NCBI GenBank assembly: GCA_903813345.2
Contig: CAIIXF020000006.1
Span: 27,411,936 to 27,475,935, forward strand
Origin: Owenia fusiformis
Lineage: Eukaryota; Annelida; Polychaeta; Sabellida; Oweniidae
Reading direction: 5' to 3'
Length of the DNA stretch: 64,000 bases
The notes beneath the pieces were generated by a model. The model was given only the letters and a program-made list of their open reading frames with translations. It had not been told where the DNA came from and did not search any database. The translations under genes were made by a program, and so were the position numbers. Below, piece after piece: positions 1 through 63,400 of this stretch. Every line of letters begins with the position of its first letter. Within the stretch, counting starts at the first letter, position 1.

Positions 1-662
1 ATAATGGTACACCCACAATTTGGTATTTTAGTAGCATGTTCTCTATCATTTACCAAAATTAATGATCGCTTTAAATTTGCTACAGGATATGATAGTTATA
101 TAATAGGGACAATATACTTCGCACATTCTACGCGATCGATTATGACATTGGCTAATGGGTTATACAATAATTTTCACATCAACAATTTCAGTTTTTCATA
201 TCTCAGAATGACACATTAAAGTCTTATTATGCAAAGAAGACATTAGTTAGCGATTAGCCGTGTTAGTTCCTCTACAAATCGGATTAGGCATTGAACAAAA
301 GTATCATAAAATTGAAATCAAAGAACTAAAGCATTTAATATTAAAACGGTTGTTAACGAAAATTGATTCATGATTTAAAGTTTGTAGGCTTTGTGTGGTT
401 CTCCTAATTCCATTTTTACCATCGGTTGCATGTTTCGTATCTATATCAACTAATTTATGGCATATCTCGATTTTCATTTGTCTAAAGGCAACCATTACAG
501 TATATGTTTCCGGTTTACATAATAGTGGGGAAGGATACAAAGGGCAAGACTAGGGATTTCCTTATATGGGCATAGCTTGTGTTGAATTCATTCGCTGATT
601 TATTTTATTAGAGTCCTTATTCTTTTTCATCCTCATATCAATGACAGTTTCATCAGCAATTA
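1..662. other. Non-coding flank, nothing recognised
   Basis: AT-rich sequence without a recognisable exon, RNA gene or repeat. The next 3' exon(s) of the minus-strand IgGFc-binding gene would be expected here or beyond the left edge. The open frames on the minus strand at about 304-540 do not resemble the continuation of that domain. Confidence 0.4.
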
Positions 663-745
663 GGGGCCATGTAAGTGAATGAACGCAAGGACCCCATCCC
701 GGGGACCCCACACGTCTCGAATTCGAAGACCTCGTGGTTACGTGT
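663..745 (-). repeat. tRNA-derived SINE fragment in intron of IgGFc-binding gene
   Basis: Read on the minus strand, this carries the phrase AACCACGAGG, a B-box-like GAATTCGAGAC and the tail CTTGCGTTCATTCA. The same arrangement occurs at 16145-16262, 12395-12480, 43315-43395 and, on the plus strand, 40435-40560. The A-box part is missing, so the copy is 5'-truncated. It starts about 15 bp downstream of the exon donor at 764-763. Internal rearrangement (a G/C-rich stretch near 690-710) makes it a degenerate member. Confidence 0.6.
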
Positions 746-764
746 ATAACATGTATATACTTAC

Positions 765-1277
765 ATACAATTCGAAATAAATCAGCAGTATTGGAAAATG
801 GTATAGCAGCAAAGTGTTTTCCCCATACCGATACCGGGTACAGTTGTTCAACAATATGCTGAGTATAGATTGTTCCGTTGCTATATTTATCTATATGGCT
901 AACACATCCTGCTATTAGCGATACAGGTGTTGAAGAGACAATTCGACAACCTGTTAAATCAGAGTCACTAGTTAACTGAAGAGTCTGAAATTGATTGAGC
1001 TGTGCTTGTATTCTGTCCCCTTGTTTGTAGGATTTCCCTTTGAATTCCACCTCGAGGGGGTGTGCATTAGGGAGTGTGATGGTTATGTTCGTGGTGCCTA
1101 CATTTGTGCTAATTATTCCTATTTGTGAAAAGCTGTCCACCATTGTATACTCGGGGGTCACTGCATAGTAGTCCGAGCCAATGAAATCGTTTGGGAGGGC
1201 AAGAAAGGGATCGTTGCTGGAGTTGGCGGCATTCAAACCATATATTACTATCTCACTAGAAGCTTCTATGTACAAAC
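765..1277 (-). CDS. IgGFc-binding protein N-terminal domain, internal exon (second exon seen)
   Basis: This is a 513-nt exon, 171 codon equivalents, bounded by a cctttcAG acceptor (AG at 1279-1278) and a GTAAGT donor (764-759). Both ends are phase 1. It joins the exon at 2849-3088 in frame (AAA-G|GT-TTG). The product reads from LYIEASSEIVIYG to DLFRIV and includes DLTGCRIVSSTPVSLIAGC, a pattern typical of the IgGFc_binding domain (FCGBP N-terminal, Pfam PF17517). Members are secreted or surface proteins with beta-rich repeats, linked to mucosal or mucus and immune functions in animals. The exact role here is unknown. Several N-x-S/T sequons fit an extracellular protein. Upstream signal peptide and downstream exons were not found. 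An unrelated beta-rich surface protein is the alternative, but the match to the family phrases is good. Confidence 0.85.
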
Positions 1278-2848
1278 CTGAAAGGAAAAATACACTTTTG
1301 GAAATAAGAAAAACAGGTACAGTGTGCATCTGACGAGCTATGTGACAAACGATATTGGAAAATGTATAGTATTCATTCTGATTCTGATTTTCCTGAAACC
1401 AAAGCGAAGGAAAAAAGAGCAAATCACCGATGCTAATTTCAACAAGCCAATAGACAAATGCCCTCAATATGTTTCAGCCATAATATCTAATTAATACCGC
1501 CATAGTTAATTTAATATCTATCTAGGAAGGGTATACCCGAGCCTTGTTGGCATTCAATTGTGGATGTCTATATTAATTTCGATTCACTTTGAACTGGGTA
1601 TGCTGAAACGAAATACACATCGTAATATGTGTTATTTTCCTAGTTTGCTCAAAATGAGAAATACTGAGAACCTGATGAGGATCGAATTGCGAAGAGTTCA
1701 ATTTAATGTAAGGCTTGCGTACAGTCTAGGAAAATAATTGTGATATGGTAGCAGTGTGTCCTTCAAATAACCCACAATGGAGATCCAATCCCTTGGGCAA
1801 TCATCACATACCTGGGAAAATACGTTCTCTCTATGACAAAATTAATTTACGTTTGTCTTCTGAATTTCCTAAGGCAAGACATTAAAGTCTTCGTATAACA
1901 ATAATTATTATACACGTGACATTTTAGAGTAGCATTATGAAATTGCACTCTTTTTGTTTGAGACATAAACTACTCAGATAACCAATAAAACACCAAGCAC
2001 CAGATGTGCGCAATCTACTTATCAAATGGCAAACCCGTATGAAGTATCCTCCCGTAGCTCGACTATCATTGGGCCCCAGATGTGCATCTTTAGATATGAA
2101 CACGGGACTGATAAATCTTCCTCAGAGATGCGATTTCATTTTCTAGTTCGTTGGAGGGCCGATTTGTTATGTCGGAGTTTGAAACTAAATGTCAAACTGA
2201 AAACCCATTCACAGTTAATCGACTTCTAATACCAACAGACCAGTTTTGATATTTTCTAATTCATTTAATCCTTTTTGATAGGAAAGGGATCTCTTTATTT
2301 CTTTCCATGTCATTAACGAAACTGATGCGTCTGATTCACTCTAATTCTCAGAGTAGTAATCAGATATGGGGTTTTAAGTCGCAGATATTGATTAGAGATG
2401 GGTATTTATAGAAAGATAAAGACAGCTTAAATTGATGTACGTCAATAGGTATACGACATTGTCATTCAACGGTTGACCTTGTTGTGAGGTATTTGGCATT
2501 ATCGGTTGGAGGATGGGCTGTCTACCTATAAATAAGTGTCACTATGTTGACGCTTCAATTATCTTTGTGTCAAAACATCTCTCCAGGTATGCAATGATAA
2601 CTGTACAATATTCCTTAAAGATAATGATAATGCAGAGATGAATACATTCAATATAGTTACAATCTACTGAAGGCATAAACAAGACTCCAGACCCCCAGAG
2701 GTTAAAAAGTGACTTAACTAATGACGATATCGATTTTGCCCTTCTGGAAGAACATGTAGCAACGAGGTACACAAAAACACCTTAGAATAATAAAACAGTT
2801 ACATGTGATTGTGTATAATTTGTGCGGCATTTATATCAACTCATTTAC
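1278..2848 (-). other. Intron of IgGFc-binding gene
   Basis: A 1571-bp intron between the two recognised exons, with donor GTAAAT (2848-2843) and acceptor TTTCAG (to 1278), splitting a glycine codon after its first base. No repeat family was recognised inside. The small open frames within it show no family resemblance. Confidence 0.75.
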
Positions 2849-4556: not shown

Positions 4557-5241
4557 ACCGTTCATCCTCCAAACACAGGCCCCTGGAACTCATACATCGT
4601 ACCAAACAGGAATGTATAGGATGATGTCTGGGGCCCTGTGTTCGGAGGATGCATATCATTAGAATTAGAAGGCTGTGAATTAAGCTTGTGTTAACCGTTC
4701 ATCCTCCAAACACAGGCCCCTGGAGCTCATACATCGTACCAAACAGGAACGTATAGGATGATGTCTGGGGCCCTGTGTTCGGAGGATGCATATCATTAGA
4801 ATTAGAAGGCTCTGAATTAAGCTTGTGTTAACCGTTCATCCTCCAAACACAGGCCTCTGGAGCTCATACATCGTACCAAACAGGAACGTATAGAATGATG
4901 TCTTGGGCCCTGCGTTCGGAGCATGCATATCATTAGAATTAGAAGGCTCTGAATTAAGCTTGTGTTAACCGTTCATCCTCCAAACACAGGCCCCTGGAGC
5001 TCATACATCGTACCAAACAGGAACGTATAGAATGATGTCTTGGGCCCTGCGTTCGGAGGATGCATATCATTAGAATTAGAAGGCTCTGAATTAAGCTTGT
5101 GTTAACCGTTCATCCTCCAAACACAGGCCCCTGGAGCTCATACATCGTACCAAACAGGAACGTATAGGATGATGTCTGGGGCCCTGCGTTCGGAGGATGC
5201 ATATCATTAGAATTAGAAGGCTCTGGATTAAGCTTGTGTTA
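4557..5241. repeat. Satellite array, 5 units of exactly 137 bp, each with internal inverted repeat
   Basis: The phrase ACCGTTCATCCTCC starts at 4557, 4694, 4831, 4968 and 5105, giving a constant 137-bp period with only scattered substitutions. Within every unit, CATCCTCCAAACACAGG is matched about 60 bp later by an inverted near-copy ending CTGTGTTCGGAGGATG. Each unit can therefore fold into a hairpin with an arm of about 20 bp. The near identity of units suggests recent amplification or homogenisation. The arms look like the termini of a short TIR element that became the founder of the array. Confidence 0.95.
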
Positions 5242-6603
5242 ACTGAACAATGTGTCTCAAAGTCGACGATCTCATGTGTAATCACGAGTGTCATCAATAG
5301 CATCTAAATGACTTTCATTATACTTAAGAGCTGAGGCACGGGAATAGAGTTAAAATGTACTGAAATAAAGTTTATTGTGTTACACCTACCATTCACTCAT
5401 CTTTATCAGCATTATGCATGTGTTAGTATGTATGGACAAGAATTTTAGTATTATTTACATATACACTACGAATCACCAACTCAGTCCATGTTTTTTTGGA
5501 CATTTTAAAACGTATTCCTTAGCATCAGCTCTAGAGTGAAAATTAATAATGAATCAGATTCACAAGTTACATAACCCATATTGCACTAGGGACTCGGTAA
5601 GTCAATTTGTACTAATTGTCTTAATAGGGAAGTGACAGTAACATCTATAATCGTTTTAACAGTCTGAGGGGGCTGCTTTTGGTGTCTCAATCTAGCAAAA
5701 TCCAATTAAGACTTCTCAATACCATGATATTTAATTAACGTAATCTATTTATCTTGGGTAATCGTGTAGAAACTTTGGGATTGCACCATTTTTGGTTTTT
5801 CAGCTGACACAATAGAAAGTAATTGAAAAATGCTTTTACATATGGTGAACTCAACATTTTTCAAACAAGTAGACTTAATGTTGTTTCTACAACATAGTTC
5901 TCCCTTTTCATATATATTTCTTATTTATAGATATTTTCACCTCTGCCCACTCTTAAACATCATTGTCTTACTTTCGCCTACCATATCAATTAACCATTTA
6001 GATGCAAACTCATGCATATATTTACACCATTTACTTGAATTTTGAGATAATCGTAAGTTTATAATTTATGCAGTTAACTGGTCGACTATTTTTACTCAAT
6101 GATACATAACTAATACATCATTATATAATGACACTATGTCACACAACAGTGTTACTGTTTATATTTTATATTTTATTGTGATAGCAATTTATATAGAATT
6201 TAGGGTCATGGTTGACGACAACTTACTTCCAGCAGCAATCATAGCCAATGTGTAGCAAAACGTTACGACAGATAGGCCTTGATGTTTCAACTCGCCCTTT
6301 TCCATCATCAGTGATTTGAGTCAAACAGTTACATCATTGATTAGGGGCTGTGGTAATCCGACCTGTAACACATAGATAATTTTTTCGTATTAGAATTGAT
6401 AAATATGTAGATACATTATAGTATTAGCTTATAGTATTAAAACATAAAAATGTAGACCAACGGTCCAACATACGAACTCACGTCTATACAGCTGAAACAC
6501 CAGTAATAACAAAATAAAAAATCACAATTCCATTTATTTATTTGTTTTCTTATTTCTTTATTTATTTATTATTAAAATCAATGTAATATATTTTTAGTTT
6601 ATA
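5242..6603. other. AT-rich non-coding interval
   Basis: No gene, RNA or clear repeat was seen. The stretch at 6510-6598 is strongly AT-rich (runs of TTTA/TTAT) and abuts the foldback element that follows. Confidence 0.4.
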
Positions 6604-7133
6604 CACTGGTGATCCGCTCGATTACGCTGGTTACCGAAACGGTTCGTTTTGGTAACAAAATGTCGGAACGTCGAAGGTACGATTTTTCTTTTTTCCTTAT
6701 TTCACGCGTTGTAGGCAGAATCCCCACGACATTTTTCTCACAAACGTGTATCAGCATCATATGGTTTAGAAAATGTACATGTTTGCGAAAAAATAGCTCA
6801 GAAGACAACAGAATCGTCGATTTAATTCCTCACTTAAGTTACATAAACGGTTTGGGTTAAAAGTGTAGATCTTAACCGTTTTTCGAAAACCGTTTATGTA
6901 ACTTGAATGAGGAATTAAATCGACGATTCTGTTGTCTTCTGAACTATTTGTTCGCAAATATGTACATTTTCTTAAACATGATACCAATACACGTTTGTGT
7001 TAAAAATGTCGTGGGAATTCTGCCTACAACGTGTGAAATAAGGCAAAAGAAAAATTGTACCTTCGATGTTCCGACATTTTGTTACCAAAACGAACCGTTT
7101 CAATAACCAGCGTAATCGAGTGGATCACCAGTG
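6604..7133. mobile_element. Foldback (long inverted repeat) element, 530 bp, 5-bp target duplication TTATA
   Basis: The left half (from CACTGGTGATCC at 6604) and the right half (ending GGATCACCAGTG at 7133) are inverted copies over nearly their full length. The centre is near 6868, at AACCGTTTTTCGAAAACCG. TTATA occurs directly outside both ends (6599-6603 and 7134-7138). There is no coding capacity beyond open frames produced by the palindrome. This is a non-autonomous DNA transposon. The CAC terminus and 5-bp duplication are compatible with several superfamilies and no assignment is made. Confidence 0.85.
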
Positions 7134-7138
7134 TTATA

Positions 7139-9177
7139 GCGGCTATGGCCCCAAGAGGGAGTATCATGTTGGTGCCACATAATGGTATTTACAATGATTT
7201 ATGATATATTTAAGAACAGTACATTGGAATGTGTTAAGTATGATATCGTACATAACATTTAAAGTTTAAATTGAAATTATGGTTAAAGGTCTCTTTTACA
7301 ATAACAGATGCATAACAATAAAAATGTGAAAGGTAATAAATGTGTTGTTTCAGGATCACAAAGACGTGTGATAACATTTGCTGAGATGTTACAGTAGTCC
7401 AAGGATTTACTACTCCAAGCATGAGATTGCAGCCTTATTTTCAATTGATTTTACAGTCATTTCGTTCAAGAATTGAATTACAAAAATAATTGTCTCATCA
7501 ATATTTTAGATATTCAGTTGTCTGTCTAAGGATCAGTAGCTCAAATCACAAATGGAGATCTAAGTATAAATCATCCTACACGTGTATACGAGTATAGTTA
7601 CACGACTACAGTACGCCATGACATAATAAAAGCTATTAAAGAAGAATTATTGAAACAGAACTTTTGCTGCATGCCATGTTCTGAAATAGTAGATACTAAT
7701 ACAAGAAATATACTAATGCTTATGAAGCATGCACTTTTTAATCTTATATCATTAGTTAAGTGGAACACGTGAATCATAATTCCACAATCACTCAAATTTA
7801 AATAGTCAACACGTAATCGTGTAATTCTTATAAACATGAAACTCGTAGGAAATATTTTCAAGAAAATCGATACAATATGATGACACGAAGAAAACGTACA
7901 TATCGTCCTTCATAAACTTTTGTATACAAAAGCAATATGTTTAAATTGTGATTGATAAATAATTTAAAAATGCATGAAGCAACTGACCTAGCATATAAAA
8001 AGTAGATATATGAGCATGAGCGAAATTATAAGTCCAGTCATTCACATTGAGTGGCTTACATGGCGTTCATTAAGTTTGAGGCAAAAGAACAAAAATTGAC
8101 TGAGAAATTTTGTTTCTCAGTCAACCTGGCTGAAATTTTCGCTCAGTGTACCTACACTATTCATACACTTATTTCATGTATGTATATCTAGACGACATCC
8201 TTATAGAATTGTATATGCATCTTTGAAATCAGTTTTCCGTAACGGTGAGTGGCGGGTGCTTTATCCTACCAGGGTAATCATGATAAAACGTTATTGTCTG
8301 ATTGATTAATTTAAGAAATACCCGAGATTGATGATTGTTTGCCTAACTATCCTGCAATGGAAAGTGACCGTGGATAACTCGCCCATAATACTTCAGCACA
8401 CTAGGCCACACATCTTTAAATGGTGTTTACATATTTTAACAATATACCTGACCCAATGCTCTGGTATATATGAAGATGCAAAGGTAACTGCTACATCAGA
8501 AGCCAATATTGGATGTGATTCGATTTGGTACAATAGTGGCAGCGGATGGATGTTTAATATATGTTTTTACCAATGACTTTTTATTTTATATTTATCTTAT
8601 TATGTGAATTTTAGATTTGGAAGACTTTTAGACTTGATACACTAAGGGAATAATAAGTACATTAATATTTAAGTAATAAACAGTTATCGGTAATCTTTTT
8701 TTCCTATTGGTGTTATTCTATCAATAAAGACAAAATGATCGTTGATTAATATTAGATCTGTAAGGTTACATACCCCACCTACATAAATGACCTTTCCATT
8801 TCCTTATGGACCCCTTCCATTAAGCATTAATTGCCAATACATAATAATATCTTATCATAGCGGAATTATCTGCAAACCTGGGGTGTATATACAGATGTTA
8901 CAGTTTACACAGGGTTTCATCTATGATTTGGGGCTCATGTTAACAAGTCCTTGGTGGCAAAACAGACAATTACAACAAATCTCACCCAACTCTTTTTGTT
9001 ACCATAGGTGTAGGTGTTCAGCCCCTGAGCTGGTTACTATGATTGCATCTTTCTCTGATAACAGTATCACACGGATTGTTCTATATGCCCTTGTCATTAG
9101 TTTGGATTGCTGAGTATTTATTTTGATATGTCTGGGGTAAGTAGACGTAAGTAGACGGTAGTTGACGTTTGATTTAT
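7139..9177. other. AT-rich non-coding interval
   Basis: No supported gene. It contains a short perfect hairpin at 8096-8124. Two plus-strand open frames (8328-8576 and 8787-9113) have no recognisable family, no splice-site support and no conserved motif. Confidence 0.4.
8096..8124. repeat. Perfect 12-bp hairpin
   Basis: TTGACTGAGAAA (8096-8107), loop TTTTG, then the exact reverse complement (8113-8124). A weaker relative, GGAGAAACAGATTTTGTTTC, occurs near 26377. Function unknown. Confidence 0.7.
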
Positions 9178-37124: not shown

Positions 37125-37310
37125 CTATGGCGGATCCGGGGGGCCCATGGGGCCCGGGCCCCCCCCCCCCCTAAGGTTGGCCCAGAAAAAAAAGTTGGGC
37201 CCAAAAAAATTTAGGCCAAAAAAGGCCTTTAGGCCCCAAAAAGTGGGCCTTTTGGTCATTATTGGGCCTTCTAAGGCCTTATTTTTTTCATTTTAGGCCA
37301 AATTTTGGTA
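37125..37310 (+). repeat. G/C-rich terminus of a dispersed element (GGCGGATCC family)
   Basis: GGCGGATCCGGGGGGCCC is followed by poly-C and GGCCCAAAAA-type phrases. An inverted partner-type end, TTCTGGATCCGCCAGTG, lies alone at 24973-24989 after a GGGCCTCA-rich stretch. Only one end is present at each site. Confidence 0.5.
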
Positions 37311-37312
37311 TT

Positions 37313-38060
37313 TAATAAGCCTGTGCACAATTTACATTGTTTTGCCACTCGTACCACGTGGCATTAAATGAGCCTGTGCACAATTTACATTGTTTTGCCA
37401 CTCGTATCACTTGGCATGTAATAAGCCTGTGCACAACTTACATTGTTTTGCCACTCGTACCACGTGACATTTAATAAGCCTGTGCACAATTTACATTGTT
37501 TTGCCACTCGTATCATCACTTGGCATTTAATAAGCCTGTGCACAATTTACATTGTTTTGCCACTCGTATCATCACTTGGTATTTAATAAGCCTGTGCACA
37601 ATTTACATTGTTTTGCCACTCGTATCATCACTTGGCATTTAATAAGCCTGTGCACAATTTACATTGTTTTGTCACTCTTACCACGTGGAGTTTAATAAGC
37701 CTGTGCACAGCTTTCATTGTTTTGCAAATCGTACCACGTGGCATTTAATAAGCCTGTGCACAATTTACATTGTTTTGTCACTCTTACCACGTGGAGTTTA
37801 ATAAGCCTGTGCACAGCTTTCATTGTTTTGCCAATCGTACCATGTGGCATTTAATAAGCCTGTGCACAATTTACATTGTTTTGTCACTCTTACCACGTGG
37901 AGTTTAATAAGCCTGTGCACAGCTTTCATTGTTTTGCAAATCGTACCACGTGGCATTTAATAAGCCTGTGCACAATTTACATTGTTTTGTCACTCTTACC
38001 ACGTGGAGTTTAATAAGCATGTGCACAACTTACATTGTTTGCCACTCATATCACTCGGGT
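37313..38060 (+). repeat. Minisatellite, 14 copies of about 54 bp, many with CCACGTGG
   Basis: AATAAGCCTGTGCACAATTT recurs 14 times from 37313 to about 38020 with spacing of 51-57 bp. Each unit continues CATTGTTTTGCCACTCGTAC. About eight units contain the palindrome CACGTG. A two-unit higher-order pattern (units with CACAGCTTTC alternating with CACAATTTAC) appears in the right half, showing local amplification. Confidence 0.95.
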
Positions 38061-43744: not shown

Positions 43745-44830
43745 AAAATATGATTCAACAACACATTGACTATACAATATTGAATCCACACTTAGTAATG
43801 AAAGTATACATACTGAATACTGAAACACATTGACTATACTAGATTGAATCCACAACTAGTATTGAAAGTATACCTACTAAAAAGTTTATAGAGAAATAAC
43901 ATTTGATCCGACCATACCATTTGCAAAATTACTAAAAAAATCTTAAAATGATTCAACATATTGACTATACTAGATATTGATTGAATCCACAACGAGTATT
44001 GAAAGTATACCTACTAGAATGTTTATAAGGAAATAACATTTGATCCGACCATACCATTTACATGATTACTAAAAAAAACTTAAGATATTATCCAACAACA
44101 CATTGACTATAATAGATTGAATCCACACCTAGTATTGAAAGTATACATACTGAATTTAAGCTTATAAAGAAATAACATTTGATCCGACCAGACCATTTAC
44201 ATGATTACTAAAAAACCTTAAAATATAATCCAACAACACATTGACTATACTAGATATAGATTGAATCCACCACTAGTATTGAAAGTATACTGTACCTACT
44301 AAAAAGTTTATGAAGAAATAACATTTGATCCGACCATACCATTTGCAAAATTACTCAAAAATCTTAAAATATGATCCAACACATTGACTATACTAGATAT
44401 AGATTGAATCCACAACTAGTATTGAAAGTATACCTACTAAAAAGTTTATAAAGAAATAACATTTGATCCGACCATACCATTTGCAAAATTACTAAAAAAT
44501 CTTAAAATATGATCCAACAAATTGACTATACTAGATATTGATTGAATCCGCAACTAGTATTGAAAGTATACCTACTAAAAAAGTTTATAAGGAAATAACA
44601 TTTGATCCGACCATACCATTTACATGATTACTAAAAAATCTTAAAATATGATCCAACACATTGACTATACTAGATATAGATTGAATCCACAGCAACTAGT
44701 ACCTACTTAAAAAGTTTATAAAGAAATAACTTTTGATCCGACCATACCATTTGAAAAATTACTAAAAAACTTAAGATATGATGCAACAACACATTGACTA
44801 TACTAGATATAAATTGAATCCACGACTAGT
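43745..44830 (+). repeat. Satellite array, about 8 units of roughly 137 bp
   Basis: ATTGACTATACTAGAT recurs near 43764, 43830, 43968, 44103, 44240, 44383, 44522, 44659 and 44795. The first interval is half-length. Units contain AAATAACATTTGATCCGACC, ATACCATTTGCAAAATTACT and AGTATTGAAAGTATACCTAC. The array is present only in duplication copy B. Confidence 0.93.
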
Positions 44831-46121
44831 AAAAACAATGTACGACATGACACTAGACAGGTCTTCGTCTTAAGGTAACAAAATCTAATTCATTGTTAGC
44901 TGACAATCTTTATGGAGATAAATTCTGGTGGAAATACGTCAATCTATCTCTTGAACTAACCAATTTGGCGTTCATGTTTACGAAGCACTATAGTACACGA
45001 TCATAGTCAGATTTTTTGTAAGGCCTCATCATGATTGTAAAGCAGCATATGGATTATTTCATACAACTAATAAATCACGCGCTGTGCGGTTCCTTAATTA
45101 ATGAGGGTATACCGTTGTACATATATCGGTCTTTAATAAAGTAATTGTTCATCCCGAATGGACTGAATGTAATCACAAAGAACATATCTTAATACTCATG
45201 TATATCTCAATTACATACTGTTGAGCGTAATTAGTAATGTACTGATGTATGCTCCCTATAATACGGAAAACTATGTTTGCTTAGCTTTTAATCTCGATTT
45301 CTAATGTAACGACTTATATTAGATATGAGACATTTTTGGAATAAAGACAAGAAGATGGGATTTGGTTTTCAAGATACGATTTGGATTGTCAATTTGCAAT
45401 TTTTAAACCTAGATCTTTCAACAAGTTGAACTTACCAAGGAAACCTTCCGTATACACATTCCAATTATTTTTCCTAGAAACAACGACCGTTACAAAGTAA
45501 ATAATTTTGATTTCACGAAACTCTGACCTGAAAGTATTAGATTATAAAAGAAGTTTACTATCACATCAATTGTTGCTTTCTCTTTCCGCATTCAAAAATT
45601 GCGTGGCCAGTTTATGTTATGAAAACCCGAGGTTACGAGCATTGGTATCAAACGTTTTAATAAATATGAATAACGGTCGGGGAATAACCTTAGTTTGAAT
45701 TAATACTATGGTTGACATAACGAGAGTAATTGATTAATGTTTTAAATCAAACATGATGCTACGACCAACAATAGTTTGCTATGATGAATGTTATTTTTGT
45801 TATAATGGTTGAGGCACCGAACGATATTGATAATTCAAACTCGATTTGAAGGTAGAAGACTCATAGTTGACCAAAATAGGGTCGAACAAGGCATTAACAT
45901 GCAAAATGGCACCATCTGCCATTTGTTACAGACGATGAACCCTAATCGCCGACCGCCGAACACGAACAGTCGAATACCGTCCACAAGAAGTTAGGGACTA
46001 CAACAATATGTCACCATTCTTTAGTGACATGAAAACGTCATCCTAAATTGTGCTTTCATAAGCAAGGGGCAATTTTCCAACATTTTAAGGGGGCCCTCAA
46101 CGTAAGTTGTTTATTTGTTCG

Positions 46122-56816: not shown

Positions 56817-57462
56817 ATGGCTGATGAGGAAGCATGCGGACTCGGTCAATGGAGACCAAAATCACTTCAGAAACTGAACACGTTGAAATATTTCACCGGA
56901 TTACTCTGCTTACTGACATTCCTCAATGGGACAGAAATGAGCTACAGGGTATCGACGTTAACGACTTTGGAGAAGCGTTTTGGCTACCAAACCTCTGCAT
57001 TTGGATTCATATTGGCTGCCAGCGATATGTCGTATGTCCCCGCATTGATTATTCTCAGCTATTTCGCCAACCGATTCAGCATTCCGAAAGTGATAAGCAT
57101 AGCAGCAATACTGCTTTGTATCGCCTCTTTCCTTTGGCAGCTACCCCACTATATATTCAAAAATGGTCACACAACGAACTTGGACATCATATTAGAAAAT
57201 AAAACAATGATCCGTCAAAGATCATCCGGTTTGTGTAATACTGCCTTATCTAGTAATGGTTACCATAACATCGACGACACTTCCGTAGCTGAAGCTTGTA
57301 ATGTGGCGCATGGTACAAAATCAAATGATGAATATACAGCAGTCACATCGATTTTTGTCATATCTCAATTGATAATGGGTGTGTGTTTGGTACCCGGAGT
57401 GACGTTGGGTATATCCTTCATTGACAGTACATTGAAACAGCAAGGGACCTCCACATATATAG
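56817..57462 (+). CDS. SLCO exon 1 (helices 1-4)
   Basis: 646 nt, residues 1-215 plus one base, with donor ATAG|GTAAGA. Cytosolic N-terminus of about 22 residues; helix 1 about 24-44 (KYFTGLLCLLTFLNG), helix 2 about 61-84, helix 3 about 90-110. An extracellular loop at 111-173 has a sequon at N128 and is longer than in most vertebrate members. Helix 4 about 174-203 (IFVISQLIMGVCLVPG). The phrase TTLEKRFG and the following stretch up to SYFANR fit the family pattern for helix 1 to helix 3. Ends TSTYIG, with the glycine codon split after its first base and completed by exon 2. Confidence 0.93.
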
Positions 57463-60400
57463 GTAAGACCCAAACTTCCACAAATATGGGGTAGGATGGA
57501 GGATTTGCACGTGAACGTGTAAAATAATGGTCCACTGGTGATTAGTTTTCCCTGTCTTCATAATTACTTGTTCGGTTGAGTATGAAGTAGTAACAGTTGT
57601 AATCAGGTCTTGGAAAGACGGGAAAAACTGAAAAATATATCATGTTCCAAGATCATGATACATGTTTTGAAAATATAAGTCGTTATGAAAATGTGCACTC
57701 TGGTTTCACCGATTTTACATTATTAAAAAGGGAATGGAAATATTAAGTATCAAATATAAAATCATAGCCATTCCACATGAATTCCGGTTTCGACAATTAT
57801 TGATAATTAAATTATTATAAAAATAAGATTCAGGTGACTGACATATGCCCTACAAAAAAATGATTTAAAACATCGTTCTTTTGTATGCCTACTAACCATT
57901 GCTGTGGGAACTTTATTTTATTATGTTTGCAGGAATGATATGGGGAAGTTATTACCATGCCAACTCTATTTTACTATGTTTGCAGGAATGAAATGGGGAA
58001 GTTATTACCTTGCCAACTCTATTTTACTATGTTTGTAGGAATGATATGGGGAAGTTATTACCTTGCCAACTCTATTTTACTATGTTTGTAGGAATGATAT
58101 GGGGAAGTTATTAACTTGCCAACTCTACTTTACTATGTTTGTAGGAATGATATGGGGAAGTTATTACCTTGGCAACTCTATTTTACTATGTTTGTAGGAA
58201 TGATATGGGGAAGTTATTACCTTGCCAACTCTATTTTACTATGTTTGCAGGAATGATATGGGGAAGTTATTACCTTGGCAACTCTATTTTACTATGTTTG
58301 TAGGAATGATATGGAGAAGTTATTACCATGCCAACTCTATTTTACTATGTTTGCAGGAATGATATGGGGAGGTTATTACCTTACAACTCTATTTTACTAT
58401 ATGTTTGCAGGAATGAAATGGGGAAGTTATTACCATGCCAACTCTATTTTACTATGTTTGTAGGAATGATATGGAGAAGTTATTATCATGCCAACTCTAT
58501 TTTACTATGTTTGTAGGAATGATATGGGGAAGTTATTACCTTACAACTCTATTTTACTATATGTTTGCAGGAATGAAATGGGGAAGTTATTACCATGCCA
58601 ACTCTATTTTACTATGTTTGTAGGAATGATATGGAGAAGTTATTATCATGCCAACTCTATTTTACTATGTTTGCAGGAATGAAATGGGGAAGTTATTACA
58701 TTGGCAACTCTATTTTACTATGTTTGCAGGAATGATATGGGGAAGTTATTACCTTGGCAACTCTATTTTACTATGTTTGCAGGAATGATATGGGAAAGTT
58801 ATTACCTTGGCAACTCTATTTTACTATGTTTGTAGGAATGATATGGGGAAGTTATTACCTTGGCAACTCTATTTTACTATGTTTGCAGGAATGATATGGG
58901 GAAGTTATTACCTTGCCAACTCTATTTTACTATGTTTGCAGGAATGATATGGGGAAGTTATTACCTTGCCAACTCTATTTTACTATGTTTGTAGGAATGA
59001 TATGGAGAAGTTATTATCATGCCAACTCTATTTTACTATGTTTGTAGGAATGATATGGGGAAGTTATTACCTTGCCAACTCTATTTTACTATGTTTGTAG
59101 GAATGAAATGGGGAAGTTATTACCTTGGCAACTCTATTTTACTATGTTTGTAGGAATGATATGGGGAAGTTATTACCTTGCCAACTCTATTTTACTATGT
59201 TTGTAGGAATGATATGGGGAAGTTATTACCTTGCCAACTTTATTTTACTATGTTTGTAGGAATGATATGGGGAAGTTATTTCCTTGCCAACTCTATTTTA
59301 CTATGTTTGTAGGAATGATATGGGGAAGTTATTACCTTGGCAACTCTATTTTACTATGTTTGTAGGAATGAAATGGGGAAGTTATTACCTTGGCAACTCT
59401 ATTTTACTATGTTTGTAGGAATGATATGGGGAAGTTATTACCTTGGCAACTTGGCAACTCTATTTTACTATGTTTGCAGGAATGATATGGGGAAGTTATT
59501 ACCTTACAACTCTTTTTTACTATGTTTGCAGGAATGATATGGGGAAGTTATAATTATTACCTTGGTAACTCTATTTTACTATGTTTGTAGGAATGATATG
59601 GGGAAGTTATTACCTTGGCAACTGTATTTATCTATGTCTCCTGGAATGATATGGGGAAGTTATTACCTTGCCAACTCTATTTTACTATGTTTGCAGGAAT
59701 GATATGGGGAAGTTATTACCTTACAACTCTATTTTACTATGTTTGCAGGAATGATATGGGGAAGTTATAATTATTACCTTGGTAACTCTATTTTACTATG
59801 TTTGTAGGAATGATATGGGGAAGTTATTACCTTGCCAACTCTATTTTACTATGTTTGCAGGAATGAAATGGGGAAGTTATTACCTTGCCAACTCTATTTT
59901 ACTATGTTTGCAGGAATGATATGGGGAAGTTATTACCTTGCCAACTCTATTTTACTATGTTTGTAGGAATGATATGGGGAAGTTATTACCTTGCCAACTC
60001 TATTTTATTATGTTTGCAGGAATGAAATGGGGAAGTTATTACCTTGGCAACTCTATTTTACTATGTTTGTAGGAATGATATGGGGAAGTTATTACCTTGG
60101 CAACTTGGCAACTCTATTTTACTATGTTTGCAGGAATGATATGGGGAAGTTATTACCTTACAACTCTATTTTACTATGTTTGCAGGAATGATATGGGGAA
60201 GTTATTACATTGCCAACTCTATTTTACTATGTTTGCAGGAATGATATGGGGAAGTTATTACATTACCAACTCTATTTTACTATGTTTGCAGGAATGATAT
60301 GGGGAAGTTATTACCTTGCCAACTCTATTTTACTATGTTTGCAGGAATGATATGGGGAAGTTATTACATTGCCAACTCTATTTTACTATGTTTGCAGGAA

Positions 60401-63400
60401 TGATATGGGGAAGTTATTCCCTTGCCAACTCTATTTTACTATGTTTGCAGGAATGATATGGGGAAGTTATTACCTTTCCAACTCTATTTTACTATGTTTG
60501 CAGGAATGATATGGAGAAGTTATTACCATGCCAACTCTATTTTACTATGTTTGTAGGAATGATATGGGGAAGTTATTACCTTGGCAACTTGGCAACTCTA
60601 TTTTACTATGTTTGTAGGAATGATATGGGGAGTTATTACCTTGGCAACTTGGCAACTCTATTTTACTATGTTTGCAGGAATGATATGGGGAAGTTATTAC
60701 CTTGCCAACTCTATTTTATTATGTTTGCAGGAATGATATGGGGAAGTTATAATTATTACCTTGCCAACTCTATTTTACTATCTTTGCAGGAATGATATGG
60801 GGAAGTTATTACCTTGGGTTTGTAGCAGGTTACCTAGAAGGAGCTATATTCACGAGTATTTATATAGATCTGTCAGGTACAAACCGGAATTTATTCTTGT
60901 GAAAATAATCTCAGAAAAAGGCATTTTGTTTGAAAAATGCCTCGAAATATAGACAAATTGTCAAATGCTCACTTCAAAAATGATCTTTTAAACCCCATAT
61001 GAAACACTAAACCCTCTGTAGGTTATCAAAAGTCTTTTTCTTTTGAAAAAATAGTAAATGGCAAGTAATTCTTTTTTTAATTTCTTTTTATTTCAAAGAA
61101 AAAATATGTTAAAGTTACACATTTGTCTGAGCTATACTGGGTATAACAAGTCCTATATTCTAAAGAAGAAAAAATCCTCCACTTATTGGACCACCCTGTA
61201 TATCTGGTTGTATTTTCAGATACAAAATTGAGCCCTGATGACCCTCATTGGAGAGGTGCGTGGTGGATTGGGTCAATTATAACCATGATACTGGCCCTCC
61301 TTATAATAATGCCTCTAATGCTATTTCCAAAGTCCATTCCACATCCCACAGCCGAAGCCGAAGCTCCTGAAGATGAAAATGAGGAGCTCGAGAAAGTGAC
61401 GGCAAATAATAATGAGGATGCTTCAAAAGCAAACAATTCTGACTATGAATATTCAATTAAAGGTACCTGTATATGTGCTCCTATATCTATGCATTTTGCT
61501 ATCATTCATTGCCACGAAGGAAACATATTTTCCGAGTAGACCTTTCAGTCTACATGTTCACATGGCACAATTTCTGGCCTAAAAATCGATCAAAATGTAG
61601 ATGGATTCTAAATTAAACGCAAGTTTGGTATCTAACAATTCATAATGTAATTCATGTATTTCATTTCAGAATTTCCAAAAGTACTTTCCAGTCTCTTGAC
61701 TAATCCAGTCTACATGGGAATAGTCGTAGGGGGTGTTTTTGTATGCTACATAATGCTACCATGGCCATATTTCTTACCAAAATACATAGAAACGCAATTT
61801 TACCAAACAGCATCGACAGCAAATATCATAACAGGTAAAACTCCTTTATATCAAGAATTAAGGTAACGCATTAAGAAAATTCAGTCACCCAACCGAGAAA
61901 GTATAGGAGGTCAGTGGATATTCTCATTTTCTCATAAGCTAGGAACATTTTTCCTATGTATTATTTGTGCAAAATTGAAATGTGGAGACCATGCGCGTAA
62001 TGATTTATGTATACCCAAAACTCGGATGCGACTCGAACAAGGAGGCCATTCTCTCTCATCACAGGAAACTACTTTCAAAATTAGATGAAATTGTTCTTCA
62101 AGAGGACACCTGCATGTATTTAACAGTGGTCTTTTTATGCGCATCCATATTGCAAGAATGATATCCTAGCGAAATTCTACATCGCTAAAAATGTGATTTG
62201 TTTCATTTTTACTGCCATGTCCAATTTTGCGTTTTTCAGCTGTAATCAACGGCGTCGCGTCATGCTCGGGGCTGTTCATAGGTGGCGCCATTCAGGCAAA
62301 ATTGAATCTGTCCATGCAAGGTATTATTCGAGTACTAATGGTGGCAACGGTGATGTGTGGGGGAGCAATGGGCCTACTGATTGCATTTGATTGTGAGGAC
62401 CAATTCATCGATGCTCATGTTGATAACAGTGGACGGTAAGAACATATGACAATCCGCAGATTGTATTAGATCTAGAGCATCCGACATGTAGTCGGGAGGC
62501 TGTGGGTTCGATTCCCATCAAGGTGGAATTATTTTTTTTCATATCAGCCCTTTTCAAATTAACCAATATTTTCAAAATCTCTTATGAATATAATTATTTT
62601 TAGTAACCGACAAAATATAACGATTTTTTTTCTGCAAAATATTTCTTAAATTTATAATTACTGTCATAAATATTCACCTTCAGTATTCAACAAACATACA
62701 CCTTGTTCTTCGGTCTATATTCATTAGTTCCCAGAATGCACTTCTACAGTGGTATACGCTGGAGTGTATACGGAGGAGTTGTATACGATGACGATATACC
62801 ACTCTCCACTGTATATCGTTGTTATAGACCCATGTTATACAACTGTAATCGGACTTAGAGTGGTATAATACAAATTATACCACAAACGTTACATGTACGT
62901 TTCAGGTTGAACATGACAAACCAATGCAACGCAGGCTGTGGGTGTTCTCTTGATGATTTTACGCCTGTATGTAGCGTGGAGAAAATGTACTTTTCTCCAT
63001 GTCACGCTGGATGCTCGAATGCTCCATTTGAAGAGGGTGGATATACGGTATGTCTAGTCCTCGGCATATGAAATCAGAAGGCCCATGACTCGACGAAAAT
63101 GTGTCTTTTAAAATAAAGCTATTGTAAAAAGCATGTGAACGCAAGAAAACACAATCCGCCTTTAAAAATTAAAACACTAACTAACTGTGTGAACTATTCT
63201 AGTAAAACACCAGCTTTGTGTCGTGAAATAGACACCGATGACTAGTGGTCATCAGAAACTGTAAACTAGCATAAATGTGTACACGTTGTTTATGCCTCAG
63301 TCACATTTGATCTATGGCAACCGTACGGCGGTCGTAGCTTTTCAAAATCTAGAGAAAAATGCAGCATAAAATATAGGGATAAGCAATACCATGTAGATTT

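Follow-up and report, generated by a model that had tools for sequence, protein, structure and literature searches.

The window analysed here, 64,000 nucleotides (nt) of contig C6 in the 498-Mb genome of the annelid Owenia fusiformis, contains toward its end the first five coding exons of an OATP/SLCO transporter gene. The gene runs past the window end, with its last Pfam match at C6:27477466-27477588. Between the first and second coding exons lies a long minisatellite whose unit joins the end of the intron to the start of the exon, so that the gene presents 54 tandem copies of an intron/exon junction.

The array and its host gene

Using Tandem Repeats Finder on the window, we detected a minisatellite with a period of 53, 54.0 copies, and 91% matches (Table 1). 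Unit copies were then located by the motif GGAATGA, which gave 54 intron/exon junctions from 57932 to 60789. Because these junctions are spaced 52 to 61 nt apart without gaps, no copy was missed despite the motif-based location. The intronic 26 nt of the unit end in CTATTTTACTATGTTTGCAG, and the exonic 27 nt read GAATGATATGGGGAAGTTATTACCTTG. The junction trinucleotide is CAG in 29 units, TAG in 24, and CTG in one. An AG is thus present in 53 of the 54 units and, since the loss falls at unit 33, in 52 of the 53 junctions upstream of unit 54. A 20-base junction probe (at most five mismatches) found 54 copies here, whereas shuffled sequence yielded 0.05 on average.

These results largely confirm an earlier note on this DNA, which had described 54 tandem copies of the intron 1/exon 2 junction of an SLCO gene, a unit of 26 nt of intron end plus 27 nt of exon 2, and about 52 upstream 3' splice sites before the real one. 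Two details need correction. The note placed the end of the array at 60828, but it lies at 60816. The note was also right that all but one unit keep an AG, but not that the same tract precedes each of them: CTATTTTACTATGTTTG is exact in 44 of the 54 units.

The units are diverse, with 31 distinct sequences among 54 and a mean pairwise difference of 5.4%. Two pairs of neighbors recur as blocks, the pair 10-11 being identical to 13-14 and the pair 29-30 to 41-42. This combination of diversity and block copies is a usual pattern of minisatellite growth. In the whole genome, a 32-base core of the unit (at most three mismatches) had 51 matches, all inside the array, while the reversed control had none; the same search found no second copy or second haplotype of the array in the one assembly. 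We therefore rejected a dispersed repeat as the source of the unit, which derives from the local junction and was not spread by a mobile repeat. At the array edges, the left flank reads TGTGGG/AACT and the last copy ends ACCTTG/GG (slash, edge), and the first duplication could have arisen from a join across two or three G common to both edges.

Amphioxus is reported to have intron/exon boundaries repeated in tandem, which go by the name of mirages (PMC3087553, PMC3902484), and one of them was misassembled in the draft genome (PMC3087553). With that precedent, the copy number of the present array, or the array as a whole, might be an assembly artefact. The 31 distinct units with their block copies, the restriction to a single locus, and the existence of several independent arrays of similar kind (see below) all speak against such an error, which we regard as the least probable of the explanations considered.

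The host gene looks intact in its predicted coding sequence. The open reading frame (ORF) that contains the first coding exon matches PF03137 with 110.6 bits, and its PDB matches are led by SLCO2A1, followed by SLCO1B3/1B1, with SLCO1C1 also present. When exons 1 to 5 are spliced from 57462 to 60790, they form a single open frame with one OATP (PF03137) match of 306.5 bits (cut-off, 25.8) over model positions 2 to 392. We compared the gene with 19 other OATP loci in the same genome. The peptides of exons 4, 5, 7, 8, and 9 match 15, 2, 14, 2, and 14 of these loci, respectively, and the exon 6 peptide had no match among them at an E value of 0.01. The end of exon 1 was readable in 16 of the 19 paralogues and falls at the same Gly codon in 16/16. 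Homology placed exon 2 in 12 of the 19 loci, and the two closest paralogues (L020 and L024) read CAG/CATGT(A/G)TATGG at the homologous exon 2 start. Because the paralogues share the junction, the view that the repeated unit straddles the true intron 1/exon 2 acceptor is supported. Both the paralogue junctions and the spliced OATP match agree with an exon 2 start at 60790. No array was found over the exon 2 start in the 12 of 19 paralogue loci where exon 2 was located.

Junction-spanning arrays elsewhere in the genome

We sampled 40 loci, 20 of the OATP family and 20 of the SNF family (PF00209), which together comprise 263,650 bases and 494 junction positions. The SNF loci were picked from 107 matches, before any arrays were seen, by the criterion of several exon matches within 10 kb. 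In the 39 loci other than the initial one, there were six further clear junction-spanning arrays, three of acceptor type and three of donor type (Table 1). The SLCO array does not, then, stand alone. The exons adjoining the SNF arrays have matches in other SNF loci and an open reading frame. Of the seven periods (53, 60, 59, 61, 32, 68, and 35 bp), a single one is a multiple of three. Two borderline cases were not counted, one at L038 7015-7158, whose unit has few exon bases, and one at L050 3880-4231, where the probe found one copy.

In the donor array of L015, the junction reads GAAATGAAAG on the exon side and GTAACTATAG on the intron side, and the first of the 12 copies is the real one. Read by eye, the common form of the unit has an open frame; copy 2 has a 2-base insertion followed by a stop. 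In the donor array of L050, the last copy reads GTACTT and the preceding copies mostly GTAAGC, so that a stronger donor may have resulted from the duplication.

Table 1. Positions of the array, its host gene, and junction-spanning arrays at other loci
Feature	Position	Strand	Basis or remark
First coding exon, OATP/SLCO gene; donor GTAAGA from 57463	56817..57462	+	PF03137 match, gene model, PDB matches
TACTAAC, perfect branch-point-like motif, single copy just 5' of unit 1 (putative branch point)	57890..57896	+	CTAAC at 57892-57896
Minisatellite, 54 x 53-bp unit (26 nt intron end + 27 nt exon start)	57909..60816	+	Repeat finding, junction count, unit comparison
Unit 33 junction, sole AG-less copy (CTG), within a cluster of changes	59643..59643	+	Junction count, unit comparison
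Unit 54 CAG, acceptor predicted to give the transporter	60787..60789	+	Junction count, gene model
Second coding exon, 87 nt; donor GTACAA	60790..60876	+	Model, spliced match; homologous start in L020 and L024
Third coding exon	61220..61462	+	PF03137 match, gene model
Fourth coding exon	61670..61834	+	Gene model; matches 15/19 paralogue loci
Fifth coding exon; gene runs beyond window end	62240..62435	+	Gene model; matches 2/19 paralogue loci
26-bp array of SLCO last intron	L005:719-1992 = window frame 64219-65492		Beyond window
Donor array, L015 (OATP), 60 bp, 12 junction copies	L015:2549-3298, in C10:37254901-37264900		Begins in exon 3
Acceptor array, L046 (SNF), 59 bp, 19 junction copies	L046:1213-2353		Gene orientation
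Acceptor array, L049 (SNF), 61 bp, 26 junction copies	L049:3336-5126		Gene orientation
Acceptor array, L043 (SNF), 32 bp, 4 junction copies	L043:626-759		
Donor array, L050 (SNF), 68 bp, 6 junction copies	L050:4292-4680		Gene orientation
Donor array, L038 (SNF), 35 bp, 3 junction copies	L038:4300-4456		

Other arrays lie close to junctions. At L012 (OATP), a 33-bp unit is repeated 68 times (6889-9080, gene orientation), starting 10 nt into the intron and excluding the donor. The last intron of the SLCO gene itself holds 49 copies of a 26-bp unit, most of them with TTCAG, and this run of copies stops 54 nt short of the last exon. Neither array spans a junction. Elsewhere in the window, five copies of a 137-bp unit (4557-5243, minus strand) lie upstream of an ORF with an IgGFc-binding domain (562-1473, minus strand); the downstream edge of this array reads AACG/GTATGT, and it is possibly another junction array of donor type. 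An AT-rich array at 43824-44831 consists of seven copies of 138 bp. A further 53-bp array (37306-38054, 14 copies) was rejected as a relative of the SLCO array since its sequence is unrelated, and the equal period looks like coincidence. An ORF downstream of the OATP gene (L005, about 67483-67725 in the window frame) resembles what we take to be a CAP/SCP domain.

Predicted splicing consequences and tests for selection

When the 53 upstream junctions were each joined to the normal exon 2 donor, an in-frame stop resulted in 53/53 cases, 7 to 79 residues past exon 1 and always 50 nt or more ahead of the following exon junction. Translation of the models gave the OATP reading frame for unit 54 only, among the 54 junctions, and on this ground the transporter protein would require the unit 54 acceptor. 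Unit 54 is the sole unit with C rather than G at position -8 and one of two units with 13/16 pyrimidines at -20 to -5. The pyrimidine tracts of the 52 intact upstream AGs are of nearly equal strength. Recursive splice sites were considered and rejected, the junction being AG/GA and not AG/GT.

Neither the unit columns nor dinucleotide retention in five arrays gave any sign that the decoy AGs are under selection. With the columns of the GGAATGA search motif counted in, the invariant columns number 13 of 24 on the intron side and 18 of 29 on the exon side. Conservation of the AG therefore does not stand out. The splice dinucleotide is kept in 52/53 extra copies in the SLCO gene, 18/18 in L046, 21/25 in L049, 10/11 in L015, and 5/5 in L050, where it ranks 9, 1, 14, 6, and 1, respectively, among 19 probe dinucleotides (L038a and L043 were left out because their splice dinucleotide was placed one base off). 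Coding constraint on the upstream exonic halves likewise left no sign. Counting distinct changes, and with three insertion-bearing units excluded by hand, we obtained 8 nonsynonymous changes, 1 synonymous change, and 1 stop, compared with 57:14:7 for all possible single changes; these proportions are close to the uncoded expectation. There is, in these comparisons, no evidence that the array is under selection, and they would be compatible with a modest effect.

The earlier note had suggested that the array may act through competition among acceptors or as a splicing timer. In such a scheme, upstream AGs would capture U2AF and some of the splicing and thereby yield nonsense transcripts, and copy number would tune expression or delay splicing. 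The raw material for it is there: 52 intact upstream AGs with tracts of nearly equal strength, a strong branch-point-like motif beside unit 1, and, from 53/53 upstream junctions, stops of the kind removed by nonsense-mediated decay. However, we obtained no positive evidence for it. The units retain the AG to no unusual degree, their exonic halves vary in the manner of uncoded sequence, and 24 of the 54 junctions have TAG, a weaker acceptor. Moreover, arrays of this kind are present in other genes at junctions that bear no relation to this one, among them donors, while the exon 2 start is array-free in 12 paralogue loci. We consider regulation of this type unlikely.

Mirages have also been proposed as possible creators of introns in globin genes, where a central unit would become a new exon (PMC3087553). 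The published model is based on the same type of array, and the SLCO array could by analogy be an intermediate in intron gain. Yet by inspection, unscored, no strong donor is apparent within the 53-bp unit, the exonic halves change as if uncoded, and the last copy alone suffices for protein. An ongoing intron gain is, in our judgment, very improbable, though not quite as improbable as an assembly artefact.

Interpretation and comparison with known systems

We think it likely that the SLCO array is a mirage, a neutral minisatellite born of local tandem duplication, and that exon definition picks its last copy. The initial event would have been a tandem duplication of 53 bp that by chance took in the 3' splice site together with 27 nt at the start of exon 2; a local birth is indicated because the unit was found at this locus only. 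Subsequent growth, by single units and by blocks of units, follows a pattern that we observed and would have proceeded by unequal exchange or slippage. The 87-nt exon 2 would be defined between the donor after 60876 and the nearest acceptor, that of unit 54. The 52 upstream AGs would be mostly ignored, and their occasional use would give rise to stop-containing transcripts that decay. The array would have no function of its own and be tolerated, and comparable events would have taken place at other junctions, both acceptors and donors, of the same genome. Of the options raised in the earlier note, the one that best agrees with the data is a neutral expansion, tolerated since the distal acceptor remains functional.

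Two sets of observations weigh against this interpretation. First, the putative branch A of TACTAAC is separated from the first AG by 37 nt and from the last by about 2.9 kb. Between TACTAAC and exon 2 there is no other CTRAY motif; the looser motif TTTAC occurs 50 times in the array. Because TACTAAC sits so near the first AG and no other CTRAY follows, branch-point scanning would favor the first AG, whereas exon definition would favor the last. With the sole perfect branch-point-like motif adjoining unit 1, the first acceptor (57932) might normally be used, the array exonized, and little or no protein made from this allele. Against this stand the open frame of exons 1 to 5 with its OATP match of 306.5 bits, the paralogue matches of exons 4, 5, 7, 8, and 9, the unusual size of a 2.9-kb exon, and the precedent of normal splicing in amphioxus mirages. 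We regard routine use of the first acceptor as highly unlikely.

Second, junction-spanning arrays appear more often than expected. Among the 40 loci there are 28 arrays that reach a length of 100 nt with 2.5 copies or more, and 7 of these span a junction, compared with 2.6 expected by random placement (simulated P[≥7] = 0.012), an expectation that is somewhat low because junctions were taken from homology blocks and some exons were missed. Without the initial SLCO array, P(≥6) was 0.035. For periods of up to 100 bp, a cut-off set post hoc, the expected number was 1.3. In this count, L050 contributed its 25-bp and 68-bp arrays as a single merged array with a period of 25. The excess is likely but not proven, and a purely random model of array birth leaves it unexplained. 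The splice junctions of this genome may tentatively be proposed as preferred birthplaces of minisatellites, with arrays of decoys at about 1% of junctions (7/494, SLCO array included) and perhaps at thousands genome-wide, although we would sooner bet against this proposal than for it. If true, it would provide a natural library for studying splice choice among dozens of near-identical sites. Even singly, an array of dozens of near-identical acceptors, of which the exon-proximal one alone would give protein, amounts to a natural experiment on branch-point scanning versus exon definition.

The earlier note knew of no comparable system, but amphioxus mirages had already been reported. They share with the SLCO array a minisatellite-like tandem unit across a true splice junction, and in both genomes acceptor and donor boundaries are affected. 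In the amphioxus gene BflGb6, the unit likewise consists of the 3' end of an intron and the 5' part of exon 2 (PMC3087553). Many, though not all, copies of amphioxus mirages keep the AG or GT, as do 53 of the 54 units here. Reverse transcription-PCR and earlier Adh3 data suggest that regular splicing is undisturbed in amphioxus (PMC3087553). The differences lie in the host, an annelid rather than a lancelet, and in size: 54 copies in the SLCO gene versus 6 and 3 in the two haplotypes of BflGb6 (PMC3087553) and 2 to 7 in PGBD5, which was later added as a mirage gene in a report that also cites Adh and troponin C (PMC3902484). As for the host, the genome has three matches to the annelid erythrocruorin-linker domain PF16915, all over the cut-off; searches with the GFP family (PF01353) and mollusc haemocyanin (PF14830), each run with no positive control, gave none, nor did one with COX1 (PF00115), perhaps because the assembly includes no mitochondrial contig.

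Two human systems are related. The IFI6 minisatellite also supplies tandem splice sites, but these are donors, some of which are said to be used (PMC4526556), whereas those of the SLCO array are acceptors. Internal tandem repeats at exon-intron boundaries in segmental duplications, like the present array a minisatellite expansion, alter gene structure (PMC2812944); unlike it, they average four copies of 30-bp units and are said to form novel introns in some cases. Among annelids, earthworms are described as having minisatellites in intron 1 of their metallothionein genes (PMC12783039). Our searches of the open-access literature turned up no report of annelid junction minisatellites, a negative of little weight. 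Several such arrays in one non-lancelet genome would make mirages a wider phenomenon and not a lancelet curiosity, and they would allow the gain of introns through tandem duplication to be put to the test. The SLCO array is probably a mirage of extreme copy number, one of several in its genome and probably in a phylum new for this kind of array.

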